Source: Polyangium sp. 15x6
GTDB taxonomy: Bacteria; Myxococcota_A; Polyangia; Polyangiales; Polyangiaceae
DNA length: 64,000 nt
Assembly: GCF_029960785.1 (NCBI RefSeq)
Contig: NZ_JASBQE010000023.1
Coordinates: 1 to 64,000, forward strand
Direction: 5' to 3'
Every line of letters begins with the position of its first letter. Within the stretch, counting starts at the first letter, position 1. Under the pieces are notes generated by a model. That model had not been told where the DNA came from. It did no database searches and saw only the letters and a list, made by a program, of their open reading frames with translations. Positions 1,619-6,613 of the stretch are shown piece by piece. Both the position numbers and the translations under genes were made by a program.

Positions 1619-2118
1619 CCGATCCCCCGCACTGACGCGACGATGAGGCCGAGTGTCACGTTCAGCCACACCACGCCGCACACGATGAAACTCATCACCG
1701 CGTAGATGCGCACGAGCCATCGCTCCTCGGCGGGACGGAGCGTGAACGCGAGCGCGCCGAGCCCGAGCGCCACGACGAGCGTGAGCGACGCGTACACTTC
1801 CTTCACGTCGAACAAGCCGGCGTAGAGCGGCGCGTATCGATCGAGGTAGATGCCGCGCACGTGGTAGCGGTACGTCGGGTAGAGCAGCGCGCCCACGGCG
1901 AAGGTGAACACGTACGCGACAGCGACGACCTTCGCCCACGTCTTCTCGGTCGCGACGCGGATGAACCGCTCTCGCAGATAGTGACGCATCGTGAGCGCGT
2001 GGTGTGTCGCGGCGCCGACGAGGACGATGCTGCCCGCGGCATGCAGCACCATGAGCAGGCGCCGCGCGCCGTAGAGGAACACGGCCTCCGTCTCGGGAGG
2101 CGCGCAAGGGTCGATCAC
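1615..2118 (-). CDS. Four-helix membrane protein with conserved His, radical SAM operon
   Basis: A 167-residue protein with about four membrane helices. His residues lie at helix ends (VLHAAGS, ATHHALTMRHYL, YRYHVRG), a pattern also seen in haem- or quinone-binding helical bundles, though no known family could be assigned. The GTG start at 2118 overlaps the stop of the radical SAM gene as GTGA, and the 3' end overlaps the next gene as ATGA. The upstream frame remains open but overlaps the radical SAM coding region, so it is not used. Confidence 0.7.
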   Translation of the reverse strand: MIDPCAPPETEAVFLYGARRLLMVLHAAGSIVLVGAATHHALTMRHYLRERFIRVATEKTWAKVVAVAYVFTFAVGALLYPTYRYHVRGIYLDRYAPLYAGLFDVKEVYASLTLVVALGLGALAFTLRPAEERWLVRIYAVMSFIVCGVVWLNVTLGLIVASVRGIG

Positions 2119-3230
2119 GTGGAAGCCTCGGTTCGTCGCACGCGCGGACACTCGGGGTCGGGGCGGAAGCTGCTCGCCGCGTGACGCGAGACGACCTGAC
2201 AACCACCACGACAGACGGGGAAGAGCGTGCACGAGGCGCAGGGCTCCGGCGGGGCTGCGTGATACGCGCGGAAGCGCTCGATCTCCTCATTCGACGCAGG
2301 CGAGAAGCTGCACGGCGCGGCGCGCCCCGCGACGTCGAGCCCGCCGAGGTGCCTGCCGGCCTCGCAGCCGAAGACGCCGAGCGAAGCGAGCATCTCGGCC
2401 GCGCGAGGTTCTTCCGCGAGCGCCTCCGAGAGCAGAGGCACGAGCGCGCAATCGATCCGCACCGACAGACGCCGCCGGTGCACGATCGCCGTGATCGCGG
2501 GCCAGAGCGCCTCGCGCTGCGCTGGCGTGAGCCGCGACTCGAAGTAGCCGATCCCCGCCGCGCGCCCCTGCGGCTTGTACCGCAAGAGCTGAAGCTCCCC
2601 CGCCCCGAGATCGGCGACACGCTCGGCCGTGGCCTCGAGATGCTCGAACGATCGCCGCGTGAGCACGAGGTTCACGCCGACGGGAATCTCCGCGCGCGCA
2701 AGAATCTCGATCGCCCGCTCGGCGACGCGCGCGCCGTCGAACCCGCGCACGGCCGCGTACGCGCCGCCCACGCCGTCGTGGCTCACGTTGATCTGCGCGA
2801 ACGCGCGGAGCTCCTTCGCGCGCTCCTCTCGCAACCCGAACCCGCTCGTCGTCATCACGGGAACGAGCCCGAGCGAACGCGCGAAGGCCGCGAGCTCGCC
2901 GAGGTCCTCGCGAAGCAGCGGCTCGCCGCCGCCGAAGGCCACGGTCGAAGCGCCGCGCTCGGCCGCGGAGGCGAGCCGCGCGCGAAGCTCGTCGAGGGAA
3001 GGCTCCGCGCCGTCGGGACGCGCGTCGAGGTAGCAGTCTGCACACGGCGCGTGGCAACGCGCGTTCACCGCGAGATGCACTTCGAGCGGGCGCGGCGGTG
3101 CGGTCGCGCCCGCGGGCTCTCCCGAGGGAACGCCGAGCCGCGCGGCGAGCGCGTGATCGACGGCGACGAGGGTTCGATCATCGAGACGAACCCACGCGCC
3201 GAAGGGCTCGGGACGGGACCAGGGGGGCAT
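2115..3230 (-). CDS. Radical SAM/SPASM domain protein
   Basis: A 371-residue protein. Residues 59-66 give the radical SAM iron-sulfur motif CX3CX2C (Cys59, Cys63, Cys66), followed by the GGEPLL motif near residue 100. The C-terminal part holds a SPASM-type Cys set: one Cys in FGCEAG, one in APCSF, and CASCTLFPVCRGGC followed by DPECPR. SPASM proteins modify peptides or proteins or mature quinone cofactors. No precursor peptide was recognised nearby. It heads a three-gene operon with two small membrane proteins. The first about 50 residues resemble a PqqD-like peptide-binding segment only weakly. Substrate unknown. Confidence 0.88.
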   Translation of the reverse strand: MPPWSRPEPFGAWVRLDDRTLVAVDHALAARLGVPSGEPAGATAPPRPLEVHLAVNARCHAPCADCYLDARPDGAEPSLDELRARLASAAERGASTVAFGGGEPLLREDLGELAAFARSLGLVPVMTTSGFGLREERAKELRAFAQINVSHDGVGGAYAAVRGFDGARVAERAIEILARAEIPVGVNLVLTRRSFEHLEATAERVADLGAGELQLLRYKPQGRAAGIGYFESRLTPAQREALWPAITAIVHRRRLSVRIDCALVPLLSEALAEEPRAAEMLASLGVFGCEAGRHLGGLDVAGRAAPCSFSPASNEEIERFRAYHAAPPEPCASCTLFPVCRGGCQVVSRHAASSFRPDPECPRVRRTEAST

Positions 3231-3334
3231 GCGAGGGGAGCGGTCTAGTGCGGACGGGCGCGTGCGTCACGGGGACGGGCGAGCGGAGGCGTGCGCTTGA
3301 CGGGGAAAGCGGGGTGCTCGAACCTTCGCGCGCG

Positions 3335-4498
3335 ATGTTCCTGCGAAGCCTGAAGCTCAACCGGCTGCTCTCGTTCGGGCCCGACGCGGAGGCGGTCGAG
3401 CTTCGGCCGCTGAACGTGCTGATCGGGCCGAATGGGTCGGGGAAGTCGAACTTCATCGAGGCGATTAGCCTCCTCCGGGCTGCCCCGAAAGAACTCGTGG
3501 TCCCGGTCCGCATCGGTGGCGGGGTGGGCGCATGGATCTGGCGGGGTGCTCCTGGTGGTCAGGCTGAACTCGAGGCCGTCCTTTCCTACCAGCCAGAGAA
3601 CGCGCTGAACTTGCGACACAGGATCGCGTTCACCGAGGTGAACTCCCGCCTCGATCTCGTCGATGAGCGAATCGAAAATGAATTGAATCGGGATGGGGCG
3701 TCGAAGCCGTCCTTTTATTTCGGGTATGAAAACGGACGTCCAATGCTCAACGCGAAGGAAGGCCCCAGGATGCTTCGTCGCGAGGACGTGGATCCGGAAA
3801 AATCCATTCTGGCCCAGCGCAAAGACCCAGACGTGTATCCCGAACTCTCGTTCCTGAGCGAGGCGTACGAGGGAATCCGTCTTTACAGAGAATGGACCTT
3901 CGGACGGTTTGCTCCACCGCGGCAACCACAGCGCGCGGATCTACCAGCGGGCTACCTGCTGGAGGACGCTTCCAACTTGGGACTCGTTCTGAACTGGTAC
4001 AGGAACGATGTGCCGACGAAGCGGGCCCTGATCGAGCACTTGCGAACGGTCTTCGATGGGGTGGTCGACTTCTCGGTCCAGGTCCTCGGCGGCATGGTGC
4101 AAATCTTCCTCGAAGAGGAGCGCTGGACGATCCCCGCCTCCCGCCTCTCCGACGGCACGATGCGCTGGCTCTCGCTCCTCGCCATCCTCCTCGATCCCAA
4201 GCCCCCGCCCCTCGTCTGCATCGAGGAGCCCGAGCTCGGCTTGCACCCCGACCTGATGAACCCCCTCGCGCGCCTCTTGAAGGATGCGTCCGAGCGCATG
4301 CAGCTCGTCGTGACGACGCACTCGGAGGCGCTCGTGGACGCCTTCCGACATACGCCCGAAGATATTCTGGTCTGCGAACGTCGAGACGGCTCGACGACGA
4401 TGCAGCGTCTCGATCCCGAGCAGCTCTCGAAATGGCTCGAGGAGTATTCGCTCGGTCAGCTCTGGTCCAAAGGGGTCCTCGGAGGGAATCGGTGGTAA
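3335..4498 (+). CDS. AAA/ABC-type ATPase (AAA_21/OLD-like), putative defence ATPase
   Basis: A 387-residue protein. It has a Walker A GPNGSGKS at 31-38, an ABC-like signature LSDGTMRW at 271-278, Walker B LVCIEEPELGLHP at about 293-305 and the His-switch TTHSEALVDAF at 327-337. This layout is that of SMC/RecF-like ATPases found in OLD, RloA and PARIS-type phage defence. The start follows an unlikely Arg-rich extension, so the ATG before FLRSLKL is used. Between about 3650 and 3900 the base composition is clearly less GC-rich than its neighbours, hinting at transfer. Its stop lies inside the start of the DUF4276 gene, so the two are coupled. Confidence 0.88.
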   Translation: MFLRSLKLNRLLSFGPDAEAVELRPLNVLIGPNGSGKSNFIEAISLLRAAPKELVVPVRIGGGVGAWIWRGAPGGQAELEAVLSYQPENALNLRHRIAFTEVNSRLDLVDERIENELNRDGASKPSFYFGYENGRPMLNAKEGPRMLRREDVDPEKSILAQRKDPDVYPELSFLSEAYEGIRLYREWTFGRFAPPRQPQRADLPAGYLLEDASNLGLVLNWYRNDVPTKRALIEHLRTVFDGVVDFSVQVLGGMVQIFLEEERWTIPASRLSDGTMRWLSLLAILLDPKPPPLVCIEEPELGLHPDLMNPLARLLKDASERMQLVVTTHSEALVDAFRHTPEDILVCERRDGSTTMQRLDPEQLSKWLEEYSLGQLWSKGVLGGNRW

Positions 4499-5136
4499 GC
4501 CGAACCAAGGCAACGCCCTCCAGCGCTGTCTGGATCTTCGTGGAAGGCGGCGGGCCGACGCGCGACGAGCAAGCCGCGCTTCGACACGGCTTCTCCGATC
4601 TTTTCGCCAAGGTCCTGGGGACGCGCAAAAAACCCAGCGTGATCGCCTGCGGTGCACGCGGCCAGGCGTTCCGGGAGTGGCAATGCGCCCTGGAGAGCCA
4701 TCCACACGTGCTTTGCCTCCTCCTCGTCGATAGCGAGGGCCCCGTCGCGAAGGGGGTCGACTTCTGGGCGTACATCCAGAACCGCGCAGGGGACGCGCAC
4801 TGGAAGAAGCCAGCAGGCGTCTCCGATGAACAGCTCCACTTCATGGTGCAGGTCATGGAAGCCTGGTTCATCGCGGATCCCGCCGCTCTCGCGCGGTACT
4901 ACGGCACGAGCTTCCAGCCGAACGCGCTCCCAGCACGCCCCGACGTCGAGAACATCCCCAAGCAAGAGCTCGCGAAGTCCCTCGCCCACGCCTCACGCAA
5001 CACGACGAAGGGTTCCTACATGAAGCACCACGGCTTCGCCCTCATCGGCCTCATCGATCCCGCCAAGGTCCGCGCCGCTTCCCCCTGGGCCGCCCGCTTC
5101 TTCGACCATCTCCTCGCCATCTGCCCCGCCCGCTGA
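4492..5136 (+). CDS. DUF4276 family protein, partner of the AAA ATPase
   Basis: A 214-residue protein that matches what I know of DUF4276: N-terminal WIFVEGGGPTRDE, central CLLLVDSEGP, then HFMVQVMEAWFIADP and the C-terminal KVRAASPWAARFF. The ordered acidic motifs (Glu in VEG, Asp in VDSEG, Glu in MEAW) look like a Toprim-type nuclease core. That fold assignment is inference. The GTG start at 4492 sits 7 bases inside the upstream ATPase gene. ATPase + DUF4276 pairs are a recurrent two-gene association that resembles ATPase/nuclease defence systems such as PARIS. Confidence 0.85.
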   Translation: MVSRTKATPSSAVWIFVEGGGPTRDEQAALRHGFSDLFAKVLGTRKKPSVIACGARGQAFREWQCALESHPHVLCLLLVDSEGPVAKGVDFWAYIQNRAGDAHWKKPAGVSDEQLHFMVQVMEAWFIADPAALARYYGTSFQPNALPARPDVENIPKQELAKSLAHASRNTTKGSYMKHHGFALIGLIDPAKVRAASPWAARFFDHLLAICPAR

Positions 5137-5150
5137 CCGCGTCCGACGGG

Positions 5151-5400
5151 GTCGACGCGTTCCTACCCCCTCGCGTCATCTTCTCCCGTGGGCGTCGACG
5201 CGTTCCTACCCCCTCGCGTCATCTTCTCCTGTGGGCGTCGACGCGTTCCTACCCCCTCGCGTCATCTTCTCCCGCGGGGGTCGACGCGTTCCTACCCCCT
5301 CGCGTCCTCTTCTCCCGCGGGGATCGACACGTTCCTACTCCCCTCGCGGCACCCTCTCCCGCGGGGATCGACGCGTTCCTACCCCCTCACGCGCCGTTTT
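5151..5400. repeat. 43-bp tandem repeat, about 5.8 copies
   Basis: Five near-perfect copies start at 5151, 5194, 5237, 5280 and 5323, with a decayed copy from 5367. Each begins GTCGACGCGTTCCTACCCCC (ATCGAC in the last two). Copies 1 and 2 differ at one base. The reverse complement contains the core ACGCGAGGGGGTAGGAACG, which is related to the ACGTGAGGGGAGGAACACGT units of the minisatellite at 60520. The 300 bases between the DUF4276 stop and the PuuD stop contain nothing else that I can support. No unique spacers, so this is not a CRISPR array. Confidence 0.92.
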
Positions 5401-5437: not shown

Positions 5438-6613
5438 CTACTTCCCCTGTCCCTCGATCCACACCTTGAGCTGGGCCCTCTCCTCATCCGTCATCGCCGT
5501 CGCGTTCCCGAGCGGCATATCCCGCGTCACGCTCGTCCGCTGCACCACCTTCTCTGCCTTTGCCAGCACTTGCTCCGGCGTCTCCAGCAGGAACCCCGAC
5601 GGCGGCGCCACGAACGACGGGTGCGTCGGCTTTTGCGAATGACACGGCACGCAGCGCTTTTGCACGATCGCCATCGCCGTCGCCGTATCCACCGGCCCCA
5701 CCACCGGCGGCGGCGCCGGCCGCACGAAGCTCAGCCCGATCGCCCCCCCGAACGCCGCCGCCACGGCCACGAGCAGCGACTTCTCTTTCCGGTCGTGCTT
5801 GAACGAGATGTTCAGGTAATGGCGGATCGTCACGCCTCCCGCCATCAAGAGCCACAGGATCAGCCACGCGCGGTGATGATTGTAGGCCAGCGCGAAATGG
5901 TTGCTGATCATCGCGAACGTGACCGGCAACGTGAAATAGTTGTTGTGCTGCGATCGCCGCTTCGCCTGCTCGCCGTGCCGCAGATCGAGCGGCTGCCCGG
6001 CATTGAGCTGTTTTCGCATGGCGATGTGATGGGGCACGATCGACGTCCACACGTTGAGCCCCATGCACGTCCCGAGCATCGCCCCCACGTGGATGTACGC
6101 GGCCCGCCCGCTGAAGACGTGCTGATACCCGTACGCCGCGATCCCGACGAACACGGCCATCACCGCCGTGATCACGCGATTGTCTTCAATGAAGAAACAA
6201 AGCTCGTTATAGAAGAACCAGCACGCCAGGATCGACGCGATGCTGATGCCCACCGCGGCCGTCGGGCCGATGTCCGCCACGCTCGGGTCGATGAGGTACG
6301 TCCGCGCGCCATACCAGTAGATCCCCGCGAGCAGGAGCACCCCCGTGACCAGCGTCGTCTTCGCCGGCCAGGCGTGGACGAGCAGGCGCTCGGGGTGGGC
6401 GTTCGGCCAGTATTGCTCGTGATAGTAAAAACTGCCGCCGTGGATCTCGTCGAGCGTGCCCCGGATGTTCTCCTTCAGCACCTTGCCCTTCGGCGGCCGG
6501 ACGGACAGGTCGAACCAATTGAAATAAAACGACGTTCCCACCCACGCGATCCCCGCCATGAGGTGGAGCCAGCGAAGCAGAATCGCGATCCAGTCCTGGA
6601 ATACCGCCATCAT
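5438..6613 (-). CDS. puuD: Membrane-bound urate oxidase (urate hydroxylase) with cytochrome c domain
   Basis: A 391-residue protein of the PuuD family, which oxidises urate to 5-hydroxyisourate at the membrane. The N-terminal part has about eight membrane helices rich in His (RWLHLMAGIAWVG, SFYYHEQYWPNAHP, VGAMLGTCMGLNVW, MISNHFALAYNHHRAW). The C-terminal part is a cytochrome c domain with haem motif CVPCH and a distal Met in DMPLGN. The start is one of two adjacent ATGs at 6613/6610, preceded by GGAG. It stands apart from the other purine genes, which lie 6-10 kb downstream on the opposite strand, and is divergent from the transglycosylase. Electrons presumably pass through the haem to the respiratory chain. 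Confidence 0.9.
   Translation of the reverse strand: MMAVFQDWIAILLRWLHLMAGIAWVGTSFYFNWFDLSVRPPKGKVLKENIRGTLDEIHGGSFYYHEQYWPNAHPERLLVHAWPAKTTLVTGVLLLAGIYWYGARTYLIDPSVADIGPTAAVGISIASILACWFFYNELCFFIEDNRVITAVMAVFVGIAAYGYQHVFSGRAAYIHVGAMLGTCMGLNVWTSIVPHHIAMRKQLNAGQPLDLRHGEQAKRRSQHNNYFTLPVTFAMISNHFALAYNHHRAWLILWLLMAGGVTIRHYLNISFKHDRKEKSLLVAVAAAFGGAIGLSFVRPAPPPVVGPVDTATAMAIVQKRCVPCHSQKPTHPSFVAPPSGFLLETPEQVLAKAEKVVQRTSVTRDMPLGNATAMTDEERAQLKVWIEGQGK

Follow-up and report, generated by a model that had tools for sequence, protein, structure and literature searches.

Gene content and organization of the locus

The stretch of DNA analysed here (the window, 64 kb) begins at position 1 of a 145.6-kb contig, which belongs to a genome of 13.4 Mb in 275 contigs. 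It carries two overlapping genes for an ATPase and a DUF4276 protein (Table 1), and the observation of this gene pair is confirmed. The ATPase matched the Pfam domains AAA_21 (E 5.9e-34) and SMC_N (E 2e-12) and retains intact Walker A (GPNGSGKSN), signature (LSDGT), Walker B (CIEEPE), D-loop and H-loop (TTHS) motifs, and all of these ABC motifs are conserved. Its structural model (pLDDT 72), which is weaker than that of the DUF4276 protein, resembles the heads of SMC, Rad50 and the defence ATPase PtuA (Z 16-18). The downstream partner matched the Pfam DUF4276 domain at E 1.6e-17 (64.8 bits, with the cut-off at 30.2). The initial annotation had described an SMC-like ATPase coupled by a 7-base overlap to a DUF4276 protein, and both statements hold, in that the ATPase is a complete ABC/SMC-type protein and the overlap is exactly of that length. 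In the vicinity of the gene pair, no sigma-70-like promoter was detected.

Table 1. Positions of the gene pair, its variable segments and its flanking genes in the window
Feature	Position	Strand	Basis
HEC-01A-type ABC/SMC-like ATPase, 387 aa	3335..4498	+	PADLOC HEC-01A PDLC04177; Pfam AAA_21
HEC-01B-type DUF4276 protein, 214 aa, GTG start	4492..5136	+	PADLOC HEC-01B PDLC04201; PF14103
7-nt gene overlap: DUF4276 GTG start within the ATPase 3' end, TAA stop	4492..4498	+	ORF coordinates
Low-GC, hypervariable middle of the ATPase gene	3530..4029	+	GC and dS among genus members
Segment absent from the sister species G003	3286..5072	.	G003 flanks 3226-3285 and 5073-5138 nearly abut
Left flank gene, radical SAM protein	2115..3230	-	PF04055 1e-13; syntenic in 6/6 genus members
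Right flank gene, urate oxidase N-terminal domain protein	5438..6613	-	PF06181 3e-91; syntenic in 6/6 genus members

The pair lies between the radical SAM gene and the urate-oxidase-domain gene and not in a defence island, and its neighbours are housekeeping genes; the left context beyond 3.3 kb is unseen in this genome because the contig ends there. Directly past the DUF4276 stop codon, a 43-bp unit is repeated 5.6 times (5148-5388) and occurs nowhere else in the genome, and in the congeners this intergenic area holds other tandem repeats.

In every locus recovered with a full-length DUF4276 protein, the DUF4276 gene is immediately preceded by an ATPase gene in the same orientation. For the wider DUF4276 family sampled in the phylum, an adjacent ATPase was present in 28 of 30 loci, and the two ATPase-less loci lie at a contig end in one case and near a contig end, with an internal stop, in the other. 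A junction of 0, -4 or -7 nt was found in the locus described here and, since it recurs in 19 others from the same phylum, Chloroflexota (including SAR202) and Bacillota, the gene overlap is not a matter of chance. Full-length relatives were found in 5 of the 58 other related genomes and in 13 of the 377 genomes of the phylum (its own genome included), and DUF4276 was present in 59 of 235 sampled genomes of the phylum. A domain that is common in the phylum and nearly always paired with an ATPase is nevertheless still listed in Pfam as one of unknown function.

Assignment to HEC-01 and relation to known defence systems

In PADLOC, residues 1-387 of the ATPase matched positions 3-393 of the 393-position HEC-01A profile (PDLC04177, E 3.5e-169), and residues 13-209 of the DUF4276 protein matched positions 4-198 of the 202-position HEC-01B profile (PDLC04201, E 5.8e-71). 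The locus therefore combines a near-full-length HEC-01A ATPase with an adjacent HEC-01B partner and, because both proteins match their models over nearly the full length, it is by sequence an intact member of HEC-01, a candidate defence system in PADLOC. The HEC class was discovered through its embedding in host defence clusters; such embedding is not demanded by the protein models and was not counted here as a defining property. HEC-01 stands for Hma-embedded candidate 01, and its PADLOC models cite a 2024 preprint by Payne et al. (10.1101/2024.01.29.577857). In the literature searched, which did not extend to that naming preprint, the HEC name is used for candidates embedded in Hma defence systems, of which HEC-05 and HEC-06 are said to work. 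HEC-01 was found there in one genome survey, by name only, 'DUF4276' was not found mentioned, and no tested HEC-01 activity or mechanism was found, in agreement with the earlier statement that the association is known, here under the name HEC-01, and its mechanism undescribed.

A check of the gene neighbourhoods for defence islands, as the initial annotation had suggested, gave a divided outcome. The copy here stands alone between housekeeping genes and differs in this from the HEC-01 pattern, whereas relatives of the same subfamily sit in BREX- and DISARM-type clusters, one of these pairs directly adjoining DrmA of DISARM. Other relatives are solitary among ordinary genes, often with a third-position GC content below that of their neighbours. 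The DUF4276 protein had no match in phage or plasmid records at E 1e-5, and its single sequence had none in viral contigs; the alignment query recovered one contig of a viral collection, IMGVR_UViG_3300045256_000750, which looks like a bacterial BREX-type defence island and not like a virus.

Several of these clusters were inspected individually. On the viral-collection contig, BrxC and the pair are directly followed by PglXI and a HEC-02 pair (L084, 116-9938), and in another genome BrxC, a HEC-01 pair, PglX and an AbiL/RloAB pair form one cluster (G088, L149, 386-12267). The genome under study itself contains a second, divergent HEC-01 pair, located between brxC-pglX and pglZ-brxL of a BREX cluster (G000:C64, L041, 7525-9332), and a third DUF4276 gene (HEC-01B PDLC04210, E 4.8e-66), located downstream of an ATPase ORF among housekeeping-looking genes (G000:C45, L042, 7607-9888). 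In a further genome, a HEC-01 pair lies less than 10 kb from a second DUF4276-ATPase pair and two AAA_21/AAA_15 ATPases (G016, L038, 3604-13396).

Similarities to other two-component or Toprim-containing systems were also considered. Like PARIS (AriA-AriB), the pair encodes an OLD/ABC ATPase and a predicted Toprim protein as separate genes, and embedding beside restriction-type systems, described for PARIS-like modules (PMC12839542), is likewise seen for relatives of the pair. However, AriB is a DUF4435 protein, of another family than DUF4276. The PADLOC AriB models did not match the DUF4276 protein at E <= 1, and no Pfam DUF4435 match was found in this protein or anywhere in the genome; membership in PARIS was rejected for want of the AriB (DUF4435) Toprim partner. 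The match of the ATPase to the AriA model (PDLC02980, E 3.4e-35) has the coordinates and length of the Pfam AAA_21 match and is far below that to HEC-01A. On the one hand, OLD, Gabija GajA and the retron-Eco8 OLD nuclease share with the pair the combination of an ABC ATPase and a Toprim nuclease, the latter predicted in the pair, and the alignment of the DUF4276 model spans the OLD C-terminal region in full. On the other hand, each domain has its own gene in this locus, identity is about 11-15%, and neither the GajB helicase nor a reverse transcriptase lies beside the pair. A single-chain OLD protein of class 1 or 2 was rejected because ATPase and Toprim are encoded by two genes. AbiL (RloA/RloB-like) resembles the pair in its AAA_21 ATPase followed by a small partner, and its AbiLi model matched the ATPase at E 5e-24, but the DUF4276 protein had neither an AbiLii match at E <= 1 in PADLOC nor a RloB match in Pfam, and AbiL membership was rejected for lack of the AbiLii/RloB partner. 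A profile comparison of DUF4276 with one RloB protein gave an overlap of 19 residues, and a single-sequence comparison with DUF4435 was likewise uninformative; the same profile comparison was equally unsuccessful for A1 against a classical DUF4276 protein and is therefore too insensitive to separate these families.

Predicted fold and putative active site of the DUF4276 protein

The AF2 model of the DUF4276 protein, computed from six sequences, reached a pLDDT of 85.4 and a pTM of 0.83. Its fold assignment rests on structural realignment to solved structures, in which ranks 1-14 were all occupied by OLD, GajA or retron-Eco8 OLD nucleases (Z 8.6 to 4.8). The top match was 6nk8, an OLD C-terminal Toprim region (166 residues, rmsd 4.3), with a Z of 8.6 that is near the level of chance resemblance; OLD C-terminal regions scored 7.1-8.6, GajA 5.3-6.6 and retron-Eco8 OLD 4.8, and unrelated folds followed from 4.8 downwards. 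Residues 9-212 of the model align with OLD 391-594, and the predicted structure comprises the Toprim and helical domains of an OLD-type nuclease. Foldseek alone gave no significant match against PDB and viral models (best E 0.096, with 6nk8 in the first row), so the OLD/Gabija-like Toprim nuclease fold predicted by the model is well supported but not proven. Sequence and profile searches of solved structures with DUF4276 returned nothing credible. AriB/PARIS was absent among the structural matches listed, which is not evidence against PARIS.

The active site of Bp OLD comprises E400, E404, D455, D457, T506, E508 and K562 (PMC6755086). The putative counterparts of E400, D455, E508 and K562 in the DUF4276 protein, namely E18, D80, E123 and K178, follow one another in the same order and are similarly spaced; E123 and K178, for example, are 55 residues apart, against 54 for E508 and K562. 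Within the subfamily, the alignment shows E18, D80 and E123 to be invariant and K178 nearly so, and among divergent DUF4276 proteins there is no exception at E18 or E123 and there are few at D80. At the second acidic position of the DxD motif (E82), E or D occurs only within this subfamily, and the motif is incomplete in classical DUF4276 proteins. Fold model and residue conservation together back the acidic Toprim-like core that the initial annotation had described, and suggest that DUF4276 is a probable OLD-type Toprim nuclease with named putative catalytic residues. Neither such an active-site assignment for DUF4276 nor the segment replacement reported below for this site was found described elsewhere. 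With these residues named, the proposed OLD-type assignment would make a common candidate defence system directly testable.

Site history and proposed function

Six genus members with syntenic flanks were compared, among which the pair is present in three (G000, G001 and G002) and absent from three (G003, G004 and G005). The latter contain, between the flanking genes, an ORF of about 2,350-2,400 aa with SpvB and FG-GAP domains (L079-L081). G003 retains the 60 bp preceding the pair and the last 66 bp of the pair, about 12 bp apart; because both edge remnants remain, the pair was lost from this species by deletion. Part of the ATPase gene had been noted as lower in GC than its surroundings, and indeed the GC content at 3575-3934 is 56.9% against a window mean of 69.4% (3.3 SD low), with one other place in the 64 kb equally low. 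Among the three carriers, dS is 0.21-0.31 in ATPase codons 1-45, rises to values from 0.74 to saturation in codons 46-270, reaches saturation in the first half of DUF4276 and is 0.06-0.19 in the last 35 DUF4276 codons, compared with 0.26-0.43 in the flanking genes. The contrast between ends and middle has an approximate Fisher p of 2e-6 to 3e-9, calculated on estimated site counts. The simplest reading of this pattern would be that the interior of both genes was replaced by divergent alleles via recombination at the conserved ends, since selection alone is not expected to raise synonymous change so locally, and such replacement would account for the GC dip too. The scar in G003 and the segmental allele replacement fit an arms-race gene. 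As the middle of the ATPase is a part exchanged from species to species, a phage-sensing surface may be located there.

The best-supported reading of the pair is an anti-phage function with PARIS/OLD-like logic. It is likely that the pair represents a stand-alone HEC-01-type anti-phage module, in which an ATPase sensor gates a Toprim nuclease. The OLD/SMC-family ABC ATPase would serve as scaffold and infection sensor and would keep the translationally coupled DUF4276 Toprim nuclease inactive; upon sensing phage activity, for example DNA ends or an anti-restriction protein, it would release or activate the nuclease. DUF4276, with a putative metal site formed by E18, D80 (with E82), E123 and K178, could then cleave host or phage nucleic acid, leading to abortive infection or direct clearance. 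This scheme of sensing and release follows by analogy with the BREX modules, where OLD-ABC ATPases with TOPRIM or other nucleases act as backup suicidal effectors (PMC12839542), and with PARIS, whose Toprim partner AriB cleaves tRNA (PMC12409363). Anti-phage activity, complex formation, ATP gating, the trigger and the substrate, DNA or tRNA, are inferred; the structural neighbours lean towards DNA and the split-gene design towards PARIS-like tRNA cleavage. Of the PARIS/OLD-like defence that the initial annotation had proposed, membership in PARIS fell with the missing AriB/DUF4435, and the defence part is upheld by the HEC-01 match, the relatives in BREX and DISARM and the OLD/Gabija-type predicted fold. 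A PARIS-like mechanism remains likely despite the failed PARIS membership: the pair probably works like PARIS/OLD and is probably defensive, but is no new kind of system.

A toxin-antitoxin module, in which DUF4276 would be a toxin neutralised by the ATPase and addiction, rather than phage defence, would maintain the pair, is an unlikely explanation. The two overlapping genes would suit it, as would the Pfam name of the ATPase domain ('putative AbiEii toxin, Type IV TA system') and the PDB entries that call AriA 'AriA antitoxin'. Plasmid and phage records, however, gave no match (see above), the pair is recurrently embedded in BREX and DISARM, and the ATPase can occur without DUF4276, as close HEC-01A homologues with no recognisable partner of this type in the sequence seen (G031, G166 and G116) indicate, which would be unexpected for a pure antitoxin. 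There is also little probability that the ATPase is itself the effector, acting by NTP depletion or DNA binding, with DUF4276 as a regulator or a non-nuclease metal-binding partner. Such a role would agree with the HEC-01A ATPases that lack DUF4276 in BREX contexts (G116 and G031) and with the incomplete DxD motif of classical DUF4276 proteins, but two points argue against it: the E, D, E and K of an OLD-type site are conserved, and the predicted fold matches that of active nucleases. The other possible nuclease gene that adjoins the G116 ATPase would fit effector exchange. A housekeeping pair for DNA repair or chromosome maintenance, with a RecF/Rad50-like ATPase and a Toprim nuclease, is very improbable: SMC and Rad50 heads are the nearest structural matches of the ATPase model, the Sulfolobales OLD protein Cran1 has a cell-cycle role rather than a defensive one (PMC12796447), and the copy here lies among ordinary genes, but the pair is absent from 3 of 6 congeners and most relatives, has left a scar of its loss in G003 and has had its interior replaced between species.

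Beyond the anti-phage module favoured here, we raise as a tentative and somewhat doubtful possibility that DUF4276 proteins constitute a separate, widespread group of stand-alone OLD-type Toprim effectors, whose ATPase partner can exchange effectors and swaps its sensor region between species by recombination. If true, this would set HEC-01 apart from PARIS and Gabija as a modular platform that combines a sensor with a nuclease, and the exchangeable effectors would comprise DUF4276, a PD-(D/E)XK-like protein (G116) and possibly a HEPN protein (G031). In G116, a HEC-01A-type ATPase in a BREX cluster lies beside a 220-aa ORF with an EAK motif (L152, 8808-10817); this ORF has no Pfam or PADLOC match and was read as PD-(D/E)XK-like from the motif, making effector exchange possible at that locus. 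In G031, a weak HEPN match, below the Pfam cut-off, lies near the ATPase on the opposite strand and adjoins BrxC.
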